From NCBI GenBank assembly GCA_905210845.1, contig CAJLYG010000038.1, forward strand, positions 1 through 19,376: a stretch of 19,376 bases of DNA, written 5' to 3'. Source of the DNA: an uncultured Prevotella sp. GTDB lineage: Bacteria; Bacteroidota; Bacteroidia; Bacteroidales; Bacteroidaceae. Each line of letters begins with the position of its first letter. Positions within the stretch are counted from its first letter, which is position 1. Positions 199 through 19,308 of this stretch are shown here, in pieces. A program made the position numbers and the translations under genes. Below the pieces are notes generated by a model. It worked only from the letters and a program-made list of their open reading frames with translations, had not been told where the DNA came from and searched no databases.

Positions 199-1206
199 TC
201 AAACCGGTGACTGATAGATATCCTTGAGAATGGCATCCCCCACCCGTCTTCGATAATGCGAGGGGTCATAGAAATCATGGTAATCATGAAACCGAGGACT
301 TGCAGACTCGTCATGCACCGCATGCTTTCCAAACAATTGCTGCAAGACCTTAAGGTCATGGTGGTTGAACCGCTCCAAATGGAAAGACGGGCCTACTACC
401 CAGTGCACGTCGGTATGGTGAAGATCACAGATCCTGCGGATCTCTTGAAGGACCCTGACTTGTTCTTCCCCGATCACTTGTTTCCCTTCATGCACACGCG
501 TCTTGGCGATTTTCCGACGCCAACTGAGATTCTTCCAATACGACTCACCCTCCTTTGCCATCGCTGCATCTTGAGGCAGCAAGGCATCATTGGTGTATCG
601 ATCACGCGTGGGGACATAAGAATGGATGACATCCCTCCCTGATGTGTCAGGCTTTCCTGTCACCAAGTATCTCATATACGGCATCAGGAACTTAGGCGAA
701 AGGAACCCTTGGAAGAAGACAGTCTGGTAATGCGCCCAACTCTCTCCCGACACATCCGGTGGCATGATATGCATCAGGCTCTGGCGGGGATGTGTTTTCT
801 CGAAGAAACTCCGCTCGGTGATGATGAGCAGATGCCGGATCCTCTGCCCATGCTCCTTGTCCAAGGCTTCCAACTTCATGTAGCATTCGCCTAATCCTTC
901 CTCATTGGAAAAGAAGCGGAAAGGATGGGCATGGATATACCGGTTCCATTCACGGCAGGAAAAGGCTTTGGTACAGGATGTCCCTAACACAAAGGAATCA
1001 TAATGGCACCGCTTCCTGTACATCTTATATTTCTCCCATCCCACTGCACCCTCATTCTGCATGACTCGACTCTGGTCGTAATCATTATAATGCCGTATCA
1101 CCATAAAGGGGTCTTCAACGACATAAAAGATAAACAACAACAGGAGAGGGAGCGCGATAAACAGGCATTTGCGATAGAATTTCCAAATAGAATGTGATGA
1201 CTGCAT
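199..1206 (-). CDS. SGNH-like membrane-anchored acyltransferase, DltD/AlgJ role
   Basis: Last gene of the four-gene operon, beginning 5 nt after the MBOAT stop; 335 residues. One hydrophobic segment at about residues 13-30 anchors the protein, with the rest predicted outside the inner membrane. After it comes DSFVLGTSCTKAF (70-82), which resembles block I of SGNH hydrolases with Ser77 as candidate nucleophile. Near the C-terminus is FYDPSHY (312-318), a D-x-x-H pattern (Asp314, His317) like the Asp/His pair of DltD, AlgJ and PatB-type acyltransferases. The inferred role is to take the acyl group from the MBOAT and place it on an envelope polymer in the periplasm. Overall similarity to classical DltD is low by eye, so it may be a diverged family. 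The broad function is moderately sure; the acceptor is unknown. Confidence 0.65.
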   Translation of the reverse strand: MQSSHSIWKFYRKCLFIALPLLLLFIFYVVEDPFMVIRHYNDYDQSRVMQNEGAVGWEKYKMYRKRCHYDSFVLGTSCTKAFSCREWNRYIHAHPFRFFSNEEGLGECYMKLEALDKEHGQRIRHLLIITERSFFEKTHPRQSLMHIMPPDVSGESWAHYQTVFFQGFLSPKFLMPYMRYLVTGKPDTSGRDVIHSYVPTRDRYTNDALLPQDAAMAKEGESYWKNLSWRRKIAKTRVHEGKQVIGEEQVRVLQEIRRICDLHHTDVHWVVGPSFHLERFNHHDLKVLQQLFGKHAVHDESASPRFHDYHDFYDPSHYRRRVGDAILKDIYQSPV

Positions 1207-1211
1207 GATTC

Positions 1212-2582
1212 TTAGAATTGAATATAGATGAAATTCTCAACGCCAAACGACCCATAGAAAAGGATCAGGAAGACGATGAGGAAATAAAGGAGCCACCGCC
1301 CTGCCACCGGCAGTTGCTCACTGGCCTTGATCAGGTTCCGTTTGCCATTGGCATACTCTACGACAAAGAGGATGACCACAGCTACGCCGAACACGATCCA
1401 GTAAAAATCCTCCATCCCCAAGCGCAATTCCTTAACCGAGGTGTTCATGCCATCCAGAAGATGCGCATAGGCATAGAATACATCCGACAGCCGTCCAACA
1501 CGGAAAAACAAGAGGGATAAGGCAAACAGGAGATAGGTGCGCACCATCATCAGGACTCCCCCTACCCGACTGCCGAACATGCCATATAACTTTTCCCTGC
1601 GCTTCCCCAAGAGCGTCTCGATGATAATGACAATGCCTTGGAAGAGCCCATAGAAAGCAAAGGTCCAACCAGCTCCATGCCATACACCAATGCTGACGAA
1701 GGTTACCAACAGGGAGACATAGACTCCCCACCGTCCATAAGAGCGCAAGGAGGCATTCAGAGGCGTGAAGATATAGTCGCGTACCCAGAACGACAAGGAT
1801 TGGTGCCACCGACGCCATAGCTCTCCCGTAGACCGAGAGATGAATGGGCGGTCGAAGTTGGGCTGCAACCTGAATCCTAACATCCGTCCAAAGCCCAATG
1901 CCATGCAAGTATATCCCGCAAAATCCGCATACAGTTGGATAGGATAAAGCAACGTGGCAACCAAGATTTGCATGCCGGAAGCTGCACGCACATGATCGAG
2001 GACAATATCCAAAGAGGGTGAGATACGGTCGGCAATGACTACTTTCATGAAGAGTCCCCAGGCCACTAATTTCAAGCCACGGGTCACCAGGGTATAGTCG
2101 AAAGGACGTGCCGCCTTCAACTGTGGCAGGAGATCACAGGCGCGCTCAATAGGACCTGACAGGAACTTCACGAAGAGCATCATGTACAGGGTGAAGTCTA
2201 TGAAGTCATCTTCCGGCTCTTCTTCCCAATAGATCTCGATAAGATAGGACAGAGCCTGGAAGGTATAGAAGGAGATACCCAAGGGGAAAAGTGGGAACCA
2301 ATAACGTGCCACCAACCAAAACGCTACCAATGTCACGATGCCCGTCCACAGCCACCTTCCGCAAGTCGGTGTGTTAAGGGCGGCATGGATCTTCTTTCCC
2401 ATGAAAAAGGTAAGCACGGTGATGCCAGAAGCGATCACGAGGTAGGACAAATGATAATACCCGATGAATACCATGCTTGCCAATAGCAATACGGCATGTT
2501 GCCAACGGCGTGTGCCACAGGCATAGTAAAGGACGAATGTGACTGCCATGCAGGTCACAAACGGTATCGACAAAAATTCCAT
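1212..2582 (-). CDS. MBOAT-family O-acyltransferase (DltB/AlgI type) with C-terminal tyrosine motif
   Basis: A 456-residue polytopic membrane protein with many hydrophobic segments, the usual length for DltB/AlgI proteins. MBOAT hallmarks are the region DRPFISRSTGELWRRWHQSL (244-263) and VWHGAGW (300-306), whose His302 is the expected catalytic histidine in the membrane; His260 is the second conserved histidine. The protein ends in FIYIQF (451-456). In the Dlt pathway a C-terminal hexapeptide tyrosine on DltX receives the acyl group, and in other prokaryotic systems the motif is reported fused to the MBOAT itself; Tyr453 fits that role. It lies 19 nt after the carrier-protein gene and 5 nt before the SGNH-like gene. 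The inferred reaction is movement of an acyl group from the carrier thioester across the membrane. The family call is sure; the cargo is inferred from the neighbouring adenylation enzyme. Confidence 0.92.
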   Translation of the reverse strand: MEFLSIPFVTCMAVTFVLYYACGTRRWQHAVLLLASMVFIGYYHLSYLVIASGITVLTFFMGKKIHAALNTPTCGRWLWTGIVTLVAFWLVARYWFPLFPLGISFYTFQALSYLIEIYWEEEPEDDFIDFTLYMMLFVKFLSGPIERACDLLPQLKAARPFDYTLVTRGLKLVAWGLFMKVVIADRISPSLDIVLDHVRAASGMQILVATLLYPIQLYADFAGYTCMALGFGRMLGFRLQPNFDRPFISRSTGELWRRWHQSLSFWVRDYIFTPLNASLRSYGRWGVYVSLLVTFVSIGVWHGAGWTFAFYGLFQGIVIIIETLLGKRREKLYGMFGSRVGGVLMMVRTYLLFALSLLFFRVGRLSDVFYAYAHLLDGMNTSVKELRLGMEDFYWIVFGVAVVILFVVEYANGKRNLIKASEQLPVAGRWLLYFLIVFLILFYGSFGVENFIYIQF

Positions 2583-2601
2583 ATCTTATTCCCGCCTGGC
2601 G

Positions 2602-2847
2602 TTATTGGTCACATTTTGCAAGAATGGTATCAATCATGTCGCCGACATTCTTCATCCGGATGATATCGCGTAACTTAAAATGAATCTGCCATTGGCGCTC
2701 TATCTCACTGATAATCGTCATGTTGGTCAGTGAATCCCAGTTGTCTATATCATCTGCTGTCATCCGGTCTTCCAATTGGATTCCGGGGCGGTTCAATACT
2801 ACTTCAAAAATGCCATTCAACAATTGTCGGATTTCTTCTCTTTCCAT
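2602..2847 (-). CDS. Acyl/aminoacyl carrier protein (DltC-like)
   Basis: An 81-residue acidic helical protein with the phosphopantetheine attachment motif DNWDSLTNM; Ser39 in DSL is the site for the 4'-phosphopantetheine arm. Size and motif fit a stand-alone carrier protein. It sits 14 nt after the adenylation gene and 19 nt before the MBOAT gene. This is the dltA-dltC-dltB-like arrangement needed to hand an activated amino acid or acyl group to the membrane enzyme, and differs in order from the classical dltABCD. By gene order it should be loaded by the upstream ligase in the cytoplasm. It could in principle carry another small acid; D-alanine is inferred from the ligase. Confidence 0.88.
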   Translation of the reverse strand: MEREEIRQLLNGIFEVVLNRPGIQLEDRMTADDIDNWDSLTNMTIISEIERQWQIHFKLRDIIRMKNVGDMIDTILAKCDQ

Positions 2848-2861
2848 GTGGGTCTGTTTTT

Positions 2862-4349
2862 TTATTCTATCAATGCTTTGATCTTGCGTCTGTCTATCTT
2901 ATTATTTGCGTTCTGTGGGAATGTCTTCATGAACACAACCTTGTTAGGAATCATGTAATCAGGGAGATAGTCCTTCAAATACCGCGTAATCGCCTTTTCC
3001 TGACTGGTATCCTCATCTTCGACGGCAAGGATTAATTGCTCATCGCCATGGTTGCCTATTGACAGGGCGACCGTTGCCACTTGATTGTGGTAGTATCTTC
3101 TGGCACTACCCTCGATCTCACTCAGTTCAATACGATAGCCTTGTATCTTTACCTGTGAGTCCTTGCGCCCCACGTAAAGGATCTCTCCATCCAGGTCCTG
3201 CTGGCAAAGATCACCGGTGAGATACCATCGCATCCCGTCCTTCATGAAAAACGCTTCCTGATTCTTCTCTGGATTCTTCCAATAACCAGGTGTAAGCTGG
3301 TTCCCTGCTAAGCAGAGTTCCCCTTTCTCCCCTGGGGCGACAGGCTGGTGATGGCCATCAACAATTTGGGTCTGGGTATGCCACATGGCCGTACCAATGC
3401 AGACAATGCCATTCCGGTGACGGGTTTGACTTTCTAACTCATAGCCTGTGCAATAAATTGTGTTCTCCGTCGGACCGTAGACATTCCAGATCCGAGCATG
3501 GGGAACAACCGTGCGCCACTGGTCGACATCATCTGCCATCAGTGCTTCCCCGCAGAACAGGGAGTATCTGAGCCGTGGGGCTTCGATCTCATCCATGTAA
3601 GGACGCAGGTAATGGATCACCGAAGGCACCATCAGCGTTGCAGTCAACTCATAAGTATCCAAAAGTCGAAAGACCTCCTGCCACTTGATTCCACCTAATC
3701 CTACCGTATATACGCAGGCTCCGGCGAGCAATGGAGGAAGATAACTGCCCACAGACAAGTCAAAGGTCAGGTCGAACATTTGTAGGCAATGGTCGTCACT
3801 GGTCAGTTGAATGCCTAAACTACCCAAAGCCTCTAAGAAAGAAGCGACACAGCCGAAAGTGATGGGAACCCCTTTCGGGCGACCGGTGCTCCCAGAAGTG
3901 AACAAGATATAGGCCTCACGATGTGCATCAAAAATGGCAACAGGACGCATTGCTGACGAAATGGAAGGAAGTTTACGGGTAAGGATAGCCATCTCTGCGG
4001 GATAGCGAGAGGATGGACTGGAGTCAAGGACCGTATGGATCCCCACTTGTGAGATGATGTCCATACATCTTGCAAGAGGCTGGAGAGGATGTAAGGGTAC
4101 ATAACATTTCCCTTCCATCCAGATCGCGAGAATGGACGCATAAGTGGTCAGGTCATTTTGGGCAACCAGTCCGATATATCGATCCTTGACCGTTGCCAAT
4201 CGCTGACGGACAGCATTCACCTTCCCGGCAAGTTGTTGATAATCATAGAAAGTATCCTGGATGCAGAAAGCGGGCCGATGCCCGTATATAGACAATGCCG
4301 TCTGCAATCGCCCGACAAAGTCATTTGTTTGCAATGGAAGAATTGTCAT
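2862..4349 (-). CDS. AMP-forming amino-acid adenylation enzyme, DltA-like (D-alanine--carrier ligase)
   Basis: First gene of the operon; 495 residues, the normal length of a stand-alone adenylation domain. Visible core motifs are A3 LFTSGSTGRPKG (149-160), A4 FDLTFDLSV (192-200), A5 NVYGPTENT (289-297), A7 YLTGD (376-380), A8 GRKDSQVKIQGYRIELSEIE (394-413) and A10 NNKIDRRK (482-489) with the catalytic lysine Lys484. It would use ATP to form an aminoacyl-adenylate and load the carrier protein encoded next. LFCGEAL (264-270) carries a cysteine (Cys266) at the place where characterised DltA enzymes have the cysteine linked to D-alanine preference, and FDLSV also resembles DltA. The substrate call is therefore reasonable but not proven. 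No TAnnTTTG promoter was recognised in the 192 bp upstream. The start gives a full N-terminus. Confidence 0.88.
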   Translation of the reverse strand: MTILPLQTNDFVGRLQTALSIYGHRPAFCIQDTFYDYQQLAGKVNAVRQRLATVKDRYIGLVAQNDLTTYASILAIWMEGKCYVPLHPLQPLARCMDIISQVGIHTVLDSSPSSRYPAEMAILTRKLPSISSAMRPVAIFDAHREAYILFTSGSTGRPKGVPITFGCVASFLEALGSLGIQLTSDDHCLQMFDLTFDLSVGSYLPPLLAGACVYTVGLGGIKWQEVFRLLDTYELTATLMVPSVIHYLRPYMDEIEAPRLRYSLFCGEALMADDVDQWRTVVPHARIWNVYGPTENTIYCTGYELESQTRHRNGIVCIGTAMWHTQTQIVDGHHQPVAPGEKGELCLAGNQLTPGYWKNPEKNQEAFFMKDGMRWYLTGDLCQQDLDGEILYVGRKDSQVKIQGYRIELSEIEGSARRYYHNQVATVALSIGNHGDEQLILAVEDEDTSQEKAITRYLKDYLPDYMIPNKVVFMKTFPQNANNKIDRRKIKALIE

Positions 4350-4484
4350 AAGAATATTCGCTTATCCATTTTACATTAATTACTCTATTCTATAACAGAA
4401 ACAAGAAATCACCCTTTCCCCCCATAAGCAACGACATCTTTTCTTGGCAAGGGGAATGGCATTCAGAAAAAAGAAAGGGAATCC

Positions 4485-4516
4485 CTTGGTAGCTTCAGAT
4501 AAATAACCTATCTTTG
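4485..4516 (+). promoter_or_regulatory. Bacteroidota-type promoter of the BamE/DUF4476 gene
   Basis: CTTG (4485-4488, one mismatch to TTTG), a 20-nt spacer and TATCTTTG (4509-4516, exact TAnnTTTG). The predicted transcription start is near 4523, about 20 nt before the ATG at 4542. A short inverted repeat, AAGGGAATCCCTT (4475-4487), overlaps the -33 element and could be an operator, though it may be chance. Confidence 0.75.
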
Positions 4517-4541
4517 TTCCCACATATTAAAAACAGTAATC

Positions 4542-5201
4542 ATGGAAAAAATGAAAAGAAAAAATGTCCTTGCCTTTCTACTCTGCTTCATCCTCATGAC
4601 ATCCAACATGAGCGCAAAGATATTAGAGACATACCATGCCGTGGAACGGGGGATGAGCAAAAAAGAAGTATTGAAGATCTTAGGGAAACCCGAGAATACC
4701 AGTTTCGATCCTAAAGGAGAACTTTGGGAATATTTCAAGAACGGCGGATTGGTTCATTACGACAAGAAGATCTATGTCTTCTTCGATACGCACAATAGTG
4801 TCGTCAGTTACCAGGAGATAACCCTTCGTCCAGAAGATGGGAACAACGATAGAAGTCCTTACGGGCGGCAACCAGGATACTTTCCTGTACCTGCCTACCC
4901 AGGCGAAAGCTATTGTATGTCAGACGACACCTATTCTATCCTCTACCGTAAGGTAAAAGCAGCCACTTTCGATGATGACAAGAACACGCTCATCGAGGTA
5001 GCGAGCTTAGGCCTATATTATAGTGGTGCACAATGTGCAGGGTTGATGAAGCTTTTTTCCTTTGATGACAATAAGCTAAAGGCACTGCGTCTCATGGCTC
5101 CACATCTCGTCGACCTGAGTCATATCACCGATATCTATGAGACCCTTAGCTATGAAAGTAGCAGGAAAGAAGCCGACAACATCATACGAAGCTATCAGTA
5201 A
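4542..5201 (+). CDS. Exported protein with BamE/SmpA-like and DUF4476 domains
   Basis: A 219-residue protein beginning with a signal peptide (basic start, hydrophobic core at about 9-19, likely cleavage after SNMSA). Residues about 28-92 contain VERGMSKKEVLKILGKPENT followed by ELWEYF and a beta-rich segment ending in VVSYQ. This is the SmpA/OmlA/BamE-like pattern in which a helix-helix 'G-M-s-k-e-e-V...lG.P' is followed by strands. A Pro/Tyr/Gly-rich linker (about 105-122) leads to a helical C-terminal domain (about 125-218). Its KVKAATFDDDKNTLI, SGAQCAGLMKLFSFDDNKLK and AADNII-type spacing match DUF4476, a domain of unknown function common in Bacteroidota. An alternative start at residue 4 (4551) is possible. 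It is transcribed divergently from the dlt-like operon from its own promoter. Function unknown; an envelope location is the only safe inference. Confidence 0.82.
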   Translation: MEKMKRKNVLAFLLCFILMTSNMSAKILETYHAVERGMSKKEVLKILGKPENTSFDPKGELWEYFKNGGLVHYDKKIYVFFDTHNSVVSYQEITLRPEDGNNDRSPYGRQPGYFPVPAYPGESYCMSDDTYSILYRKVKAATFDDDKNTLIEVASLGLYYSGAQCAGLMKLFSFDDNKLKALRLMAPHLVDLSHITDIYETLSYESSRKEADNIIRSYQ

Positions 5202-16187: not shown

Positions 16188-19100
16188 TTAAATGCCAATA
16201 CGTAAACCAAAATTCAATATCTTGATCATCGGATAAGCGGTCCCGTTCGGATTGGTCTCCGGATCGCAGACTTTCAGCTTATCAAAGGTCAGTAGGTTAT
16301 AGCCTGACAAGGACACTCTCAACGAAGAGACATGCAACTTCTGGGTGACGGACCGTGGCAGGGAATAGCCTAACTCGATGTTCTTTAAGCGAAGATAAGA
16401 GGCATTGCGCAACCACAGGTCGGAACTCATATAGTTATGGCCCTTGCTACGGAATGACAAAGCGGGTGCCTTGGCAGAGTTTCCTTTCTCTGGTGTCCAG
16501 GCATCATCGACCATGTACTTCATCAGACTGAAATTATTGCTGTGACCAAAAGGCTCCAGGTAGGTGGAACTCAGCATACGAGAGGTCTTAAAGGCTCCCG
16601 ACCAAGTCATCGACAGGTCAAAGCCCTTGTAGGAGAATCCCATGTTGATACCCATGGAATACAGAGGATACATCGGATAGCCAATATCCCGGACATCCTT
16701 CTCGTCAATCTTCCCATCCCCATTCAGGTCTTTGTACTTCACGTCACCTGCCAAGGGGATGTATCCACTACCTTGGTCGGGGATGCCGCCTTCCTTGCCT
16801 TTCAGGCTCTCATAGTTCTTCACGTCTTCCTCCGAGATAACCGTCGGTGACATAGCCGAAATTCTGAGAGACAGGTTTACCTGTGCGTTGCATCCATTCA
16901 TAAGGATATTTCACCTCATCCATATAGATGATCTTGTTGCGGGCATACGACAAGCTAGCTCCTACATAATATCTGAAGTCACGGACATGACTGTCCCACC
17001 TGACATTGATCTCATATCCATGGTTGTCTACCTTTCCCATATTCACGGTAGGCAAGGAAACGGCAAGATAACCGGGAATGACACCACGGGAGATCAGGAT
17101 GTTCTTGCGATGCTCGATGAAGTAATCGAAGTTGATGGTCAACTGGTTCTTGATCAACTTCATATCTGCGCCTAAGTTGGTCTTGACTGACGTCTCCCAA
17201 GTAACTAATGGATTGCCCAACTTTCCTTCAGCTGCGCCAGGGATCTTAGAGCCTGTGGTAACGCCAAAACTGTAATTGCCACTGCTCAGGTAATAGGTAC
17301 TGGGAAGGTAAAGGAAACGGGAGCTGTCGCTTGTCAGGTCGTTTCCGACCTTTCCTAAGGAAGCCCTCAGCTTCAAGTAGCCCACTGCTTTCTTCAAAGG
17401 CTTGAAGAATCCTTCCTCAGAGAGAATCCATCCTAAGGAACCGGCAGGGAAAAAACCATAGCGATGACCCTTTGCAAAGTTCTCCGAGCCATTATATCCC
17501 ATACTAAAATCAGCAAGGTAACGGGTCTTGTAATCATAAGTGGCACGACCCACAAAGCCTACGTAGCTCCTGGGGATGCCGGGATAGCTGCCTGCAGGAT
17601 AGTATTTCATGGTCTGGTTGTACATGGCCAAGGCACTGACATGATGGGGACCGAAGTCGCGCTTGTAGTTGAAGGCTCCCTCAAGATACCAGTTCCTGGA
17701 GAGTCCATCCGACTCACTATATCCAATCTTCTGATATTCCTGGATGAGCTTCAACTGCACCTCTCCATCTTTCAAGTATGCCTCATATGCCGTCATGCGA
17801 CCTTCGCGGCGCTTGTAAATGGAGACACCGCTGTTATAGGCTCCCTTGATATGGAAGGACAATCCCTTGGTAATGGCATCCAACTGCTGGGTGAGCTGCA
17901 TGTCGAAGTTCAGCACATTGTTCGCATAGGTGTTGTATCCCTTGCCATAATAGACGTTCAGGGCATCTTGCACATCCGTGAACTTACTGTTGTATACGCG
18001 GATGCGCTTGCCATCGACGATCCCTGCCCCGCTGAAAGGAGCGGCGGTATAGATATCCCGAAAAAGATAGGAGACCGTTGACGTACTTCCATTGTTATAG
18101 TTGGGCTGTTGCCGATTGTTCAGGTATCCTCCTACATTCACCTTCAAGTTAGTCGTGCTCGTGAGTCCAAGGTCAAGGTTCAGGCGATAGTTGTAACGAT
18201 TATATCGGAAGCCCTTGTCGTTGGCATTATGAAAGGTCTTGAAGAATCCATCCTGAGTAAACGCCCCGATGGAAGCGAAGTATTTCACCCTGTCGGATCC
18301 TCCAGATATATTGAAGTTGTACTGCATCTGCAAGGAAGCCTTCCGAATCAGCATGTCCACCCAATCCGTGCTGGGATGTGTGAGCGGGGAGGAACCATCC
18401 TTGTACTTCTGGAGGTCGTCCTCGTTGAACATCAGCTGGTCTTCGGAAACGCCATCGTGCAACTGTGCCCCGTTGTATGCCGTCGCCCATCCATAGCTAT
18501 CCTCGTACTCTGGCAAGCGTGTAGGGAACTGTAACGCAGTGGTAGCAGAGAAAGAAATCTTTGCCTTCCCCTTGCTTCCACGCTTGGTAGTAACCAAGAT
18601 GACACCATTGGCACCACGCACGCCGAACACGGCAGTGGCAGATGCATCCTTCAAGACGGTGATATTGTCTACTTCATTGGGGTCTAACTGGAAGAAGGAA
18701 CGCTCTACCCCATCTACTAAGATCAGCGGCGAGGAGAGCCCAGTGCTCAGGGAGCCTACACCACGAATAAATAAGGTAGGACTATCCGCACCTGGCGCAC
18801 CGCTCATCTGGATACTCGACAAGCCCGTCACCTTACCGGCGAGGGCATTACCCATATTGGCTACAGGTGCCTTCAGCAGATCTTCCTGGTTGACCGAGGA
18901 GATTGCACCGGTGACGGTAACCTTCTTTGTCGTACCATAGGCGATCACCTGGACACCTTGTAAGGTGGTGGCGTCTTCTTTCATTTCAACTTGCAAAGGC
19001 TTCGATGACTTGCAAACCACAGAGGTGGGCATATATCCCACGCAGGTGATGTCTAACCGGGAACCCACCGGAACCTGGATAGTAAACTGACCGTTCACAT

Positions 19101-19308
19101 CTGTGACTGTGGCAGTCTTCGTGCCATGAACCATGATAGTCGCGCCAATGATGGGACCATCGCTACCGGTTACCGTACCGCGCACCTCTATGGTTCCCTT
19201 CCTTTGCAACACTTCTTGTACAACTGTAGAAGCATGGACAGGCAGGATAAACCCTGTGCCGGACAGCATCAGTGCAAAAATCCCATAAGGAATAATTGAT
19301 CTTTTCAT
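16188..19308 (-). pseudogene. SusC-family TonB-dependent transporter (SusC-2), interrupted by a frameshift near 16836
   Basis: The 5' frame starts at 19308 and runs 832 codons to a stop at 16810. A signal peptide ends near VHA. A carboxypeptidase-D regulatory-like domain covers about 38-115 (VRGTVTGSDGPIIGATI, VTDVNGQFTIQVP, VGYMPTS). The plug spans about 127-240 and is followed by barrel. After FGYVTDGY (ending at 16837) the normal SusC sequence continues in the next frame from SEEDVKNYESLKG (16835 on) through DVKYKDLNGDGKIDEKDVRDIGYP to the C-terminal strand ILNFGLRIGI at 16188. Joined, the product would be about 1,039 residues, normal for SusC. One extra base, or 2 or 5 missing bases, would account for the shift. 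No recognisable slippery site is present. Without the last roughly 215 residues the barrel could not close. It may be a true mutation or a sequencing error. Confidence 0.9.

Follow-up and report, generated by a model that had tools for sequence, protein, structure and literature searches.

A four-gene cassette in an uncultured Prevotella

We analyzed a 19,376-nucleotide stretch of contig CAJLYG010000038.1 from an uncultured Prevotella sp. (GenBank assembly GCA_905210845.1), hereafter the window. Four minus-strand open reading frames (ORFs) lie tightly packed between positions 4349 and 199, with gaps of 14, 19, and 5 nucleotides, and encode an adenylation enzyme (A), a carrier protein (C), an MBOAT (B), and an SGNH-like protein (D) in the order A-C-B-D (Table 1). 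An initial annotation of this DNA had described these genes as a complete dlt operon, the set that adds D-alanine to teichoic acids in Gram-positive bacteria, here in a member of the Bacteroidota. The tight linkage of the four gene types holds, with Pfam matches for A and B and a modeled SGNH fold for D, as does the Bacteroidota origin; the nearest related locus belongs to the uncultured Prevotella isolate RUG143, whose D is 94% identical.

Table 1. Features of the A-C-B-D cassette and of the region upstream of it (window coordinates).
Feature	Position	Strand	Residues and remarks
A: stand-alone amino-acid adenylation enzyme, DltA-like, 495 aa	2862..4349	-	Asp197 and Lys484 kept
C: carrier protein, 81 aa	2602..2847	-	phosphopantetheine Ser39 in WDSL
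B: MBOAT, 456 aa	1212..2582	-	DltB-like fold; His302; C-terminal helices 392-414 and 426-443
Putative acyl-Tyr shuttle hexapeptide FIYIQF at the B C-terminus (Tyr453), with stop codon	1212..1232	-	FXYXXF motif
D: SGNH-like transferase, 335 aa	199..1206	-	N-terminal helix 4-31; Ser77/Asp314/His317
Intergenic region, A to divergent DUF4476 gene (4542-5201)	4350..4541	.	no ORF ending FXYXXF

The A protein matches the Pfam AMP-binding family (179.3 bits) and misses the curated DltA model TIGR01734 widely (259.9 bits; cut-off 559.85), a cut-off reached in none of seven genomes of related loci. Adenylation domains of nonribosomal peptide synthetases (NRPSs) and of DltA are among its best-ranked PDB matches. 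Asp197, at the position that we take to contact the alpha-amine of the amino acid in adenylation enzymes, is kept in all 31 cassette A proteins (the window and the 30 strict loci described below); Lys484, presumably the A10 lysine, is kept in 30 of them, the exception being L029, whose A consists of two ORFs. The ten-residue pocket code of the window A, DLGLLCVIYK, varies among relatives and is identical at four of ten positions (D, L, C, and K) to the codes of two DltA proteins (DLMVMCTVAK and DLMVVCTVAK). Among the 31 proteins, position 266, which aligns with a cysteine presumed to line the DltA pocket, carries Cys 15 times, Ala 12 times, Thr 3 times, and Ser once; the A alignment (A4) itself comprises 22 of the 31. 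Since Asp197 and Lys484 are kept, an amino-acid cargo appears well supported, but the pocket code is variable and agrees only in part with that of DltA, so that D-alanine is only plausible. The initial annotation was thus supported on the class of cargo and went beyond the evidence in naming D-alanine, which would be the single likeliest candidate at somewhat less than even odds, with glycine, L-alanine, and others also possible.

The carrier C scores 20.2 bits against the Pfam PP-binding family, slightly below the cut-off of 20.8, and residue 39 is serine in 31 of 31 proteins. B matches the Pfam MBOAT family (67.8 bits) and does not reach the cut-off of the curated DltB model TIGR04091 (148.6 bits; cut-off 375); its predicted fold matches DltB by structure comparison, and His302 is conserved in 37 of 37 aligned proteins (alignment A5, holding 37 of 56 MBOATs). 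For D, neither Pfam nor NCBIfam gives a match, and a sequence comparison with the PDB finds nothing up to E = 1. The predicted structure of D (mean predicted local distance difference test score, 92.9) has an SGNH fold, for which the ten best Foldseek matches are DltD chains from four entries; these matches are weak (best E-value 1.4e-3, TM-scores 0.30-0.39), as is the hhalign comparison with DltD (probability 7.4). VIA-align gives PatB a score as high as that of DltD; alginate O-acetyltransferase is not among the VIA-align rows for D, an absence that excludes nothing. Ser77 and His317 are present in 49 of 49 aligned sequences, and position 314 is Asp in 38 and Glu in 11.

A 2025 study (PMC12148441) describes DltX as ending in an FXYXXF motif whose tyrosine accepts D-Ala from DltB and hands it to DltD, and PatA as having this motif within its own sequence, at the C-terminus and on two helices absent from DltB, and as being auto-acetylated on the motif tyrosine. 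In the model of B, FIYIQF likewise follows two C-terminal helices, in a low-confidence tail. The hexapeptide tyrosine is conserved in all 56 MBOATs, and the C-terminus reads FIY(I/V/L/T)QF in the 31 strict cassettes and (F/Y)(I/L)YFQF in 25 relatives that have only B and D. With its catalytic His302, C-terminal FXYXXF, and adjoining D gene, B has the predicted makeup of an MBOAT-SGNH shuttle. A pattern scan of the window for DltX finds no small ORF ending in FXYXXF, and in the 30 strict loci the motif-ending ORFs are at most 22 amino acids long, except one of 59 amino acids in L030, which runs in another frame across the end of B and the start of D and is taken as chance. The same scan recovered DltX in the control dlt operon L067. 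In a second control, the annotated dlt operon L066, no DltX is seen and DltB bears no motif; DltX is therefore not universal in dlt operons. Because the motif lies on B, no DltX was found, and A and C are present, the cassette appears to combine the donor side of dlt with a PatA-type shuttle in cis. This predicted pairing of a carrier-fed MBOAT with a built-in shuttle motif is the distinguishing feature of the cassette, and it was absent from the initial annotation.

Position 4 of the hexapeptide was considered as a marker of donor type, being I, V, T, or L in 31 of 31 strict cassettes and F in 25 of 25 B-and-D relatives, and was rejected as a strict rule. The strict cassettes are dependent cases because they form nearly one clade. 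Moreover, 20 further stretches include eight MBOAT ORFs with F at this position (in L101, L115, L116, L117, and L118), several of which adjoin a carrier gene, and PatA, an acetyl-CoA user, has A (FIYANF).

Distribution, variants, and MBOAT phylogeny

A search with D returned 27 proteins, and the alignment of the window D with 24 of these (A1; P0001, which is identical, and P0009 and P0027, which are short, were left out) led to 57 loci in named genomes. Thirty of the 57 (L001-L030) share the A-C-B-D order, so the four-gene cluster is no chance arrangement; since the loci were chosen through D, this fraction is not a prevalence. The initial annotation had proposed a search for this gene order across Bacteroidota. 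The cassette is real and conserved. A further 25 loci have B and D, neither A nor C being recognized at the thresholds applied, and B was not found in two (L031 and L033). Carriers are chiefly Prevotellaceae (Prevotella, Segatella, Hallella, and Hoylesella), and also include Phocaeicola abscessus, P. oris, two unclassified Bacteroidales, a Butyricimonas, a Carboxylicivirga, and an Ancylomarina. Culturable strains with the cassette include Hallella multisaccharivorax DSM 17128 and Segatella baroniae DSM 16972. Across the 30 strict loci and the window, no neighboring gene family is shared by more than four of the 31; the 16 nearby genes scanned, drawn from 13 of the 30 strict loci, belong to differing Pfam families or to none, including a TrpD-like transferase, DUF349, a phosphomannomutase, GH97, an acyl-CoA dehydrogenase, and one polysaccharide flippase. 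As no neighbor family is shared, the cassette stands alone and its neighborhood names no acceptor; an attempt to identify the acceptor in this way was dropped.

An order-level sample was surveyed with a profile of A, scoring the best five candidates per genome, and 28 of 295 genomes gave a match at E <= 1e-100. Wider regions from 19 of the 28 genomes (20 stretches) contain a direct A-C-B series in four cases (L100, L106, L109, and L110), with D recognized in three; counting the genome of L015 itself, the series occurs in five of the 28, eight of the 28 being viewed in short flanks only. In a family-level sample, for which the best three candidates per genome were scored, a window-like A at E <= 1e-205 was found in 7 of 399 genomes, a count of the A match alone. 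The distribution of the cassette thus looks sporadic.

Several loci depart from the simple series. Two D genes flank A-C-B in L019 (10001-15678), two tandem D genes occur in L017 (3390-5819), and two tandem A genes with differing pocket codes occur in L100 (7971-11006). Looser Bacteroidales clusters (L105 1353-8832, L115 7036-12319, and L116 7103-13327) have extra genes between the adenylation enzyme and the carrier and MBOATs ending in FVYLEF, FIYFQF, or FIYFDF. The intervening gene is of GNAT type by Pfam in L105 and L115, where it may N-acylate the carrier-bound amino acid, and the one tested in L116 has no Pfam match; L105 also encodes two GDSL proteins, one with LysM. On a Metabacillus plasmid (L069, 2126-6454), a carrier, an AMP ligase without the amino-acid Asp (code SYSGTAMARK), an MBOAT ending in FIYGGF, and a hypothetical protein occur together, perhaps as a Gram-positive example of a fused-motif system fed by a carrier.

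A quick tree groups 34 of the 35 cassette MBOATs in a single clade (support 100) and places the 35th, from L100, elsewhere. A more careful tree of 46 hand-chosen rows (without L100; three long rows were removed for one repeat), rooted on DltB by choice, recovers the 13 sampled cassette MBOATs as a clade (100/100) among motif-bearing Bacteroidota MBOATs and apart from eight DltB proteins. A clade uniting cassette MBOATs with DltB was not rejected by the approximately unbiased (AU) test (p = 0.722, with the higher likelihood for the tree that has this clade), nor in later runs (p = 0.252 and 0.314). The free trees suggest an origin of the cassette MBOATs independent of DltB, which we do not claim because the AU tests do not reject the shared clade. 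A third envelope-acylation architecture, in which a carrier-fed aminoacyl MBOAT-SGNH system with a fused shuttle would have arisen in Bacteroidota, independently of dlt, when a CoA-type MBOAT-SGNH pair gained an adenylation enzyme and a carrier, is offered as a tentative idea, with the odds leaning against it.

Outside the cassette, the window has typical Bacteroidota content, namely the divergent gene for a DUF4476 protein, genes for an alpha-L-rhamnosidase and a GH16 protein, and two SusC/SusD-type pairs. One SusC-type gene is apparently split (16188-19308) into ORFs 16810-19308 and 16188-16901, which overlap, share a strand, and differ in frame; the latter has no Pfam match and resembles a SusC C-terminus, consistent with a sequencing error or a broken gene. 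A scan with a Bacteroidetes-type promoter pattern gave no match before gene A and two matches elsewhere in the window, and a sigma-70 scan returned 12 sites against 7.3 expected (standard deviation 2.7).

A proposed aminoacylation route and its alternatives

We propose that these genes form a self-contained, carrier-fed envelope-aminoacylation cassette with an acyl-Tyr shuttle in cis and an extracytoplasmic acceptor, a reading to which we assign a probability of roughly 0.75. In this scheme, A would use ATP to activate a small amino acid and would then charge the phosphopantetheine arm of C, from which B, in the inner membrane, would accept the aminoacyl group and move it to Tyr453 of its own FIYIQF. 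The tail of B would then offer the aminoacyl-Tyr ester to Ser77 of D on the periplasmic side, and D, as an inner-membrane-anchored SGNH protein, would esterify a hydroxyl of the acceptor, most likely a glycan, for example a lipid-linked or lipopolysaccharide (LPS) saccharide. The sequences and models themselves show the set of genes and their order, the conserved catalytic residues and motif, and the predicted folds; the class of cargo, each of the transfers, the membrane sidedness, and the acceptor are inferred. An aminoacylation role is most likely, and by mechanism the cassette most likely works like dlt.

Resemblance in mechanism may also reflect shared descent, such that this would be a true dlt pathway that D-alanylates a polymer, with the DltX motif fused to the MBOAT or always present in it. 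The structural match of B to DltB and the weak one of D to DltD are consistent with this, as are the four residues common to the pocket codes and the AU results. However, the scores of A and B fall far short of the cut-offs for the DltA and DltB models, the gene order differs from the X-A-B-C-D of L067, and the free trees place the cassette MBOATs among motif-bearing Bacteroidota MBOATs; we consider a true dlt pathway of this kind unlikely.

Alternative views of the two ends of the route can be weighed in the same way. That the cargo is some other carboxylic acid is suggested by the Metabacillus locus, where such a cargo may be used, since it pairs a carrier and a motif-bearing MBOAT with a ligase lacking the key Asp; the presence of Asp197 in every cassette A protein, given the role in amine contact that we assume for it, and the NRPS and DltA domains among the best-ranked PDB matches make this highly improbable for the cassette. 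At the other end, the acceptor might be peptidoglycan and not a glycolipid or polysaccharide, which would make the cassette an aminoacyl analog of PatAB. PatA has the same fused motif, PatB equals DltD in VIA-align score, and the lack of common neighbors fits a universal acceptor. Against this, D has no Pfam domain and therefore no known peptidoglycan-binding domain, and Foldseek ranks DltD above PatB, so we view a peptidoglycan acceptor as improbable and prefer the envelope-aminoacylation cassette with a glycan acceptor.

Comparison with known systems

If this reading is correct, ester-linked amino acids decorate the envelope in a set of Prevotellaceae and in some other Bacteroidota, altering its charge. 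Literature searches by titles and abstract openings, with most subscription papers outside their reach, found no report of such a modification in these bacteria and no description of the cassette in this phylum. Dlt-like aminoacylation of Gram-negative envelopes is already known. The dra system of Bordetella pertussis, in another phylum, adds D-alanine to an outer-membrane component (PMC4448142, PMC9410548), and in Vibrio cholerae alm a DltA-like enzyme aminoacylates an envelope molecule as well, there with glycine or diglycine on LPS (PMC3783018). The surprise that the initial annotation expressed at finding such genes in a Gram-negative member of the Bacteroidota was therefore only partly justified and, in view of dra and alm, overstated.

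Similarly to Gram-positive dltXABCD, the cassette joins an adenylation enzyme, a carrier, an MBOAT, and an SGNH transferase in one operon, and the same chemistry may be expected; the fold of B matches DltB, and that of D weakly matches DltD. The cassette differs in its A-C-B-D order, in the fusion of the motif to the MBOAT, and in the absence of sequence matches for D. To our knowledge, teichoic acid is not expected in Bacteroidota. Judged by its gene membership, the cassette is not a dlt operon, and the description of a complete one fails on the widely missed DltA and DltB models, the DltX that was not found, and the motif at the MBOAT C-terminus.

With PatA/PatB and other MBOAT-SGNH O-acetylation pairs, the cassette shares an MBOAT with a C-terminal FXYXXF and a separate SGNH protein. 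In the 2025 account (PMC12148441), such pairs are acyl-CoA users, and the MBOAT/SGNH pathways other than Dlt have no similar carrier protein and no DltX. In contrast, A and C stand in series upstream in the window and in 30 of 30 strict loci, which sets the cassette outside the PatAB type. If our reading holds, the cassette would be an exception to the generalization that fused-motif MBOAT/SGNH pathways have no carrier protein, and its combination of an in-cis shuttle with a carrier-bound donor would allow the acyl-Tyr shuttle model to be tested in a compact natural setting.

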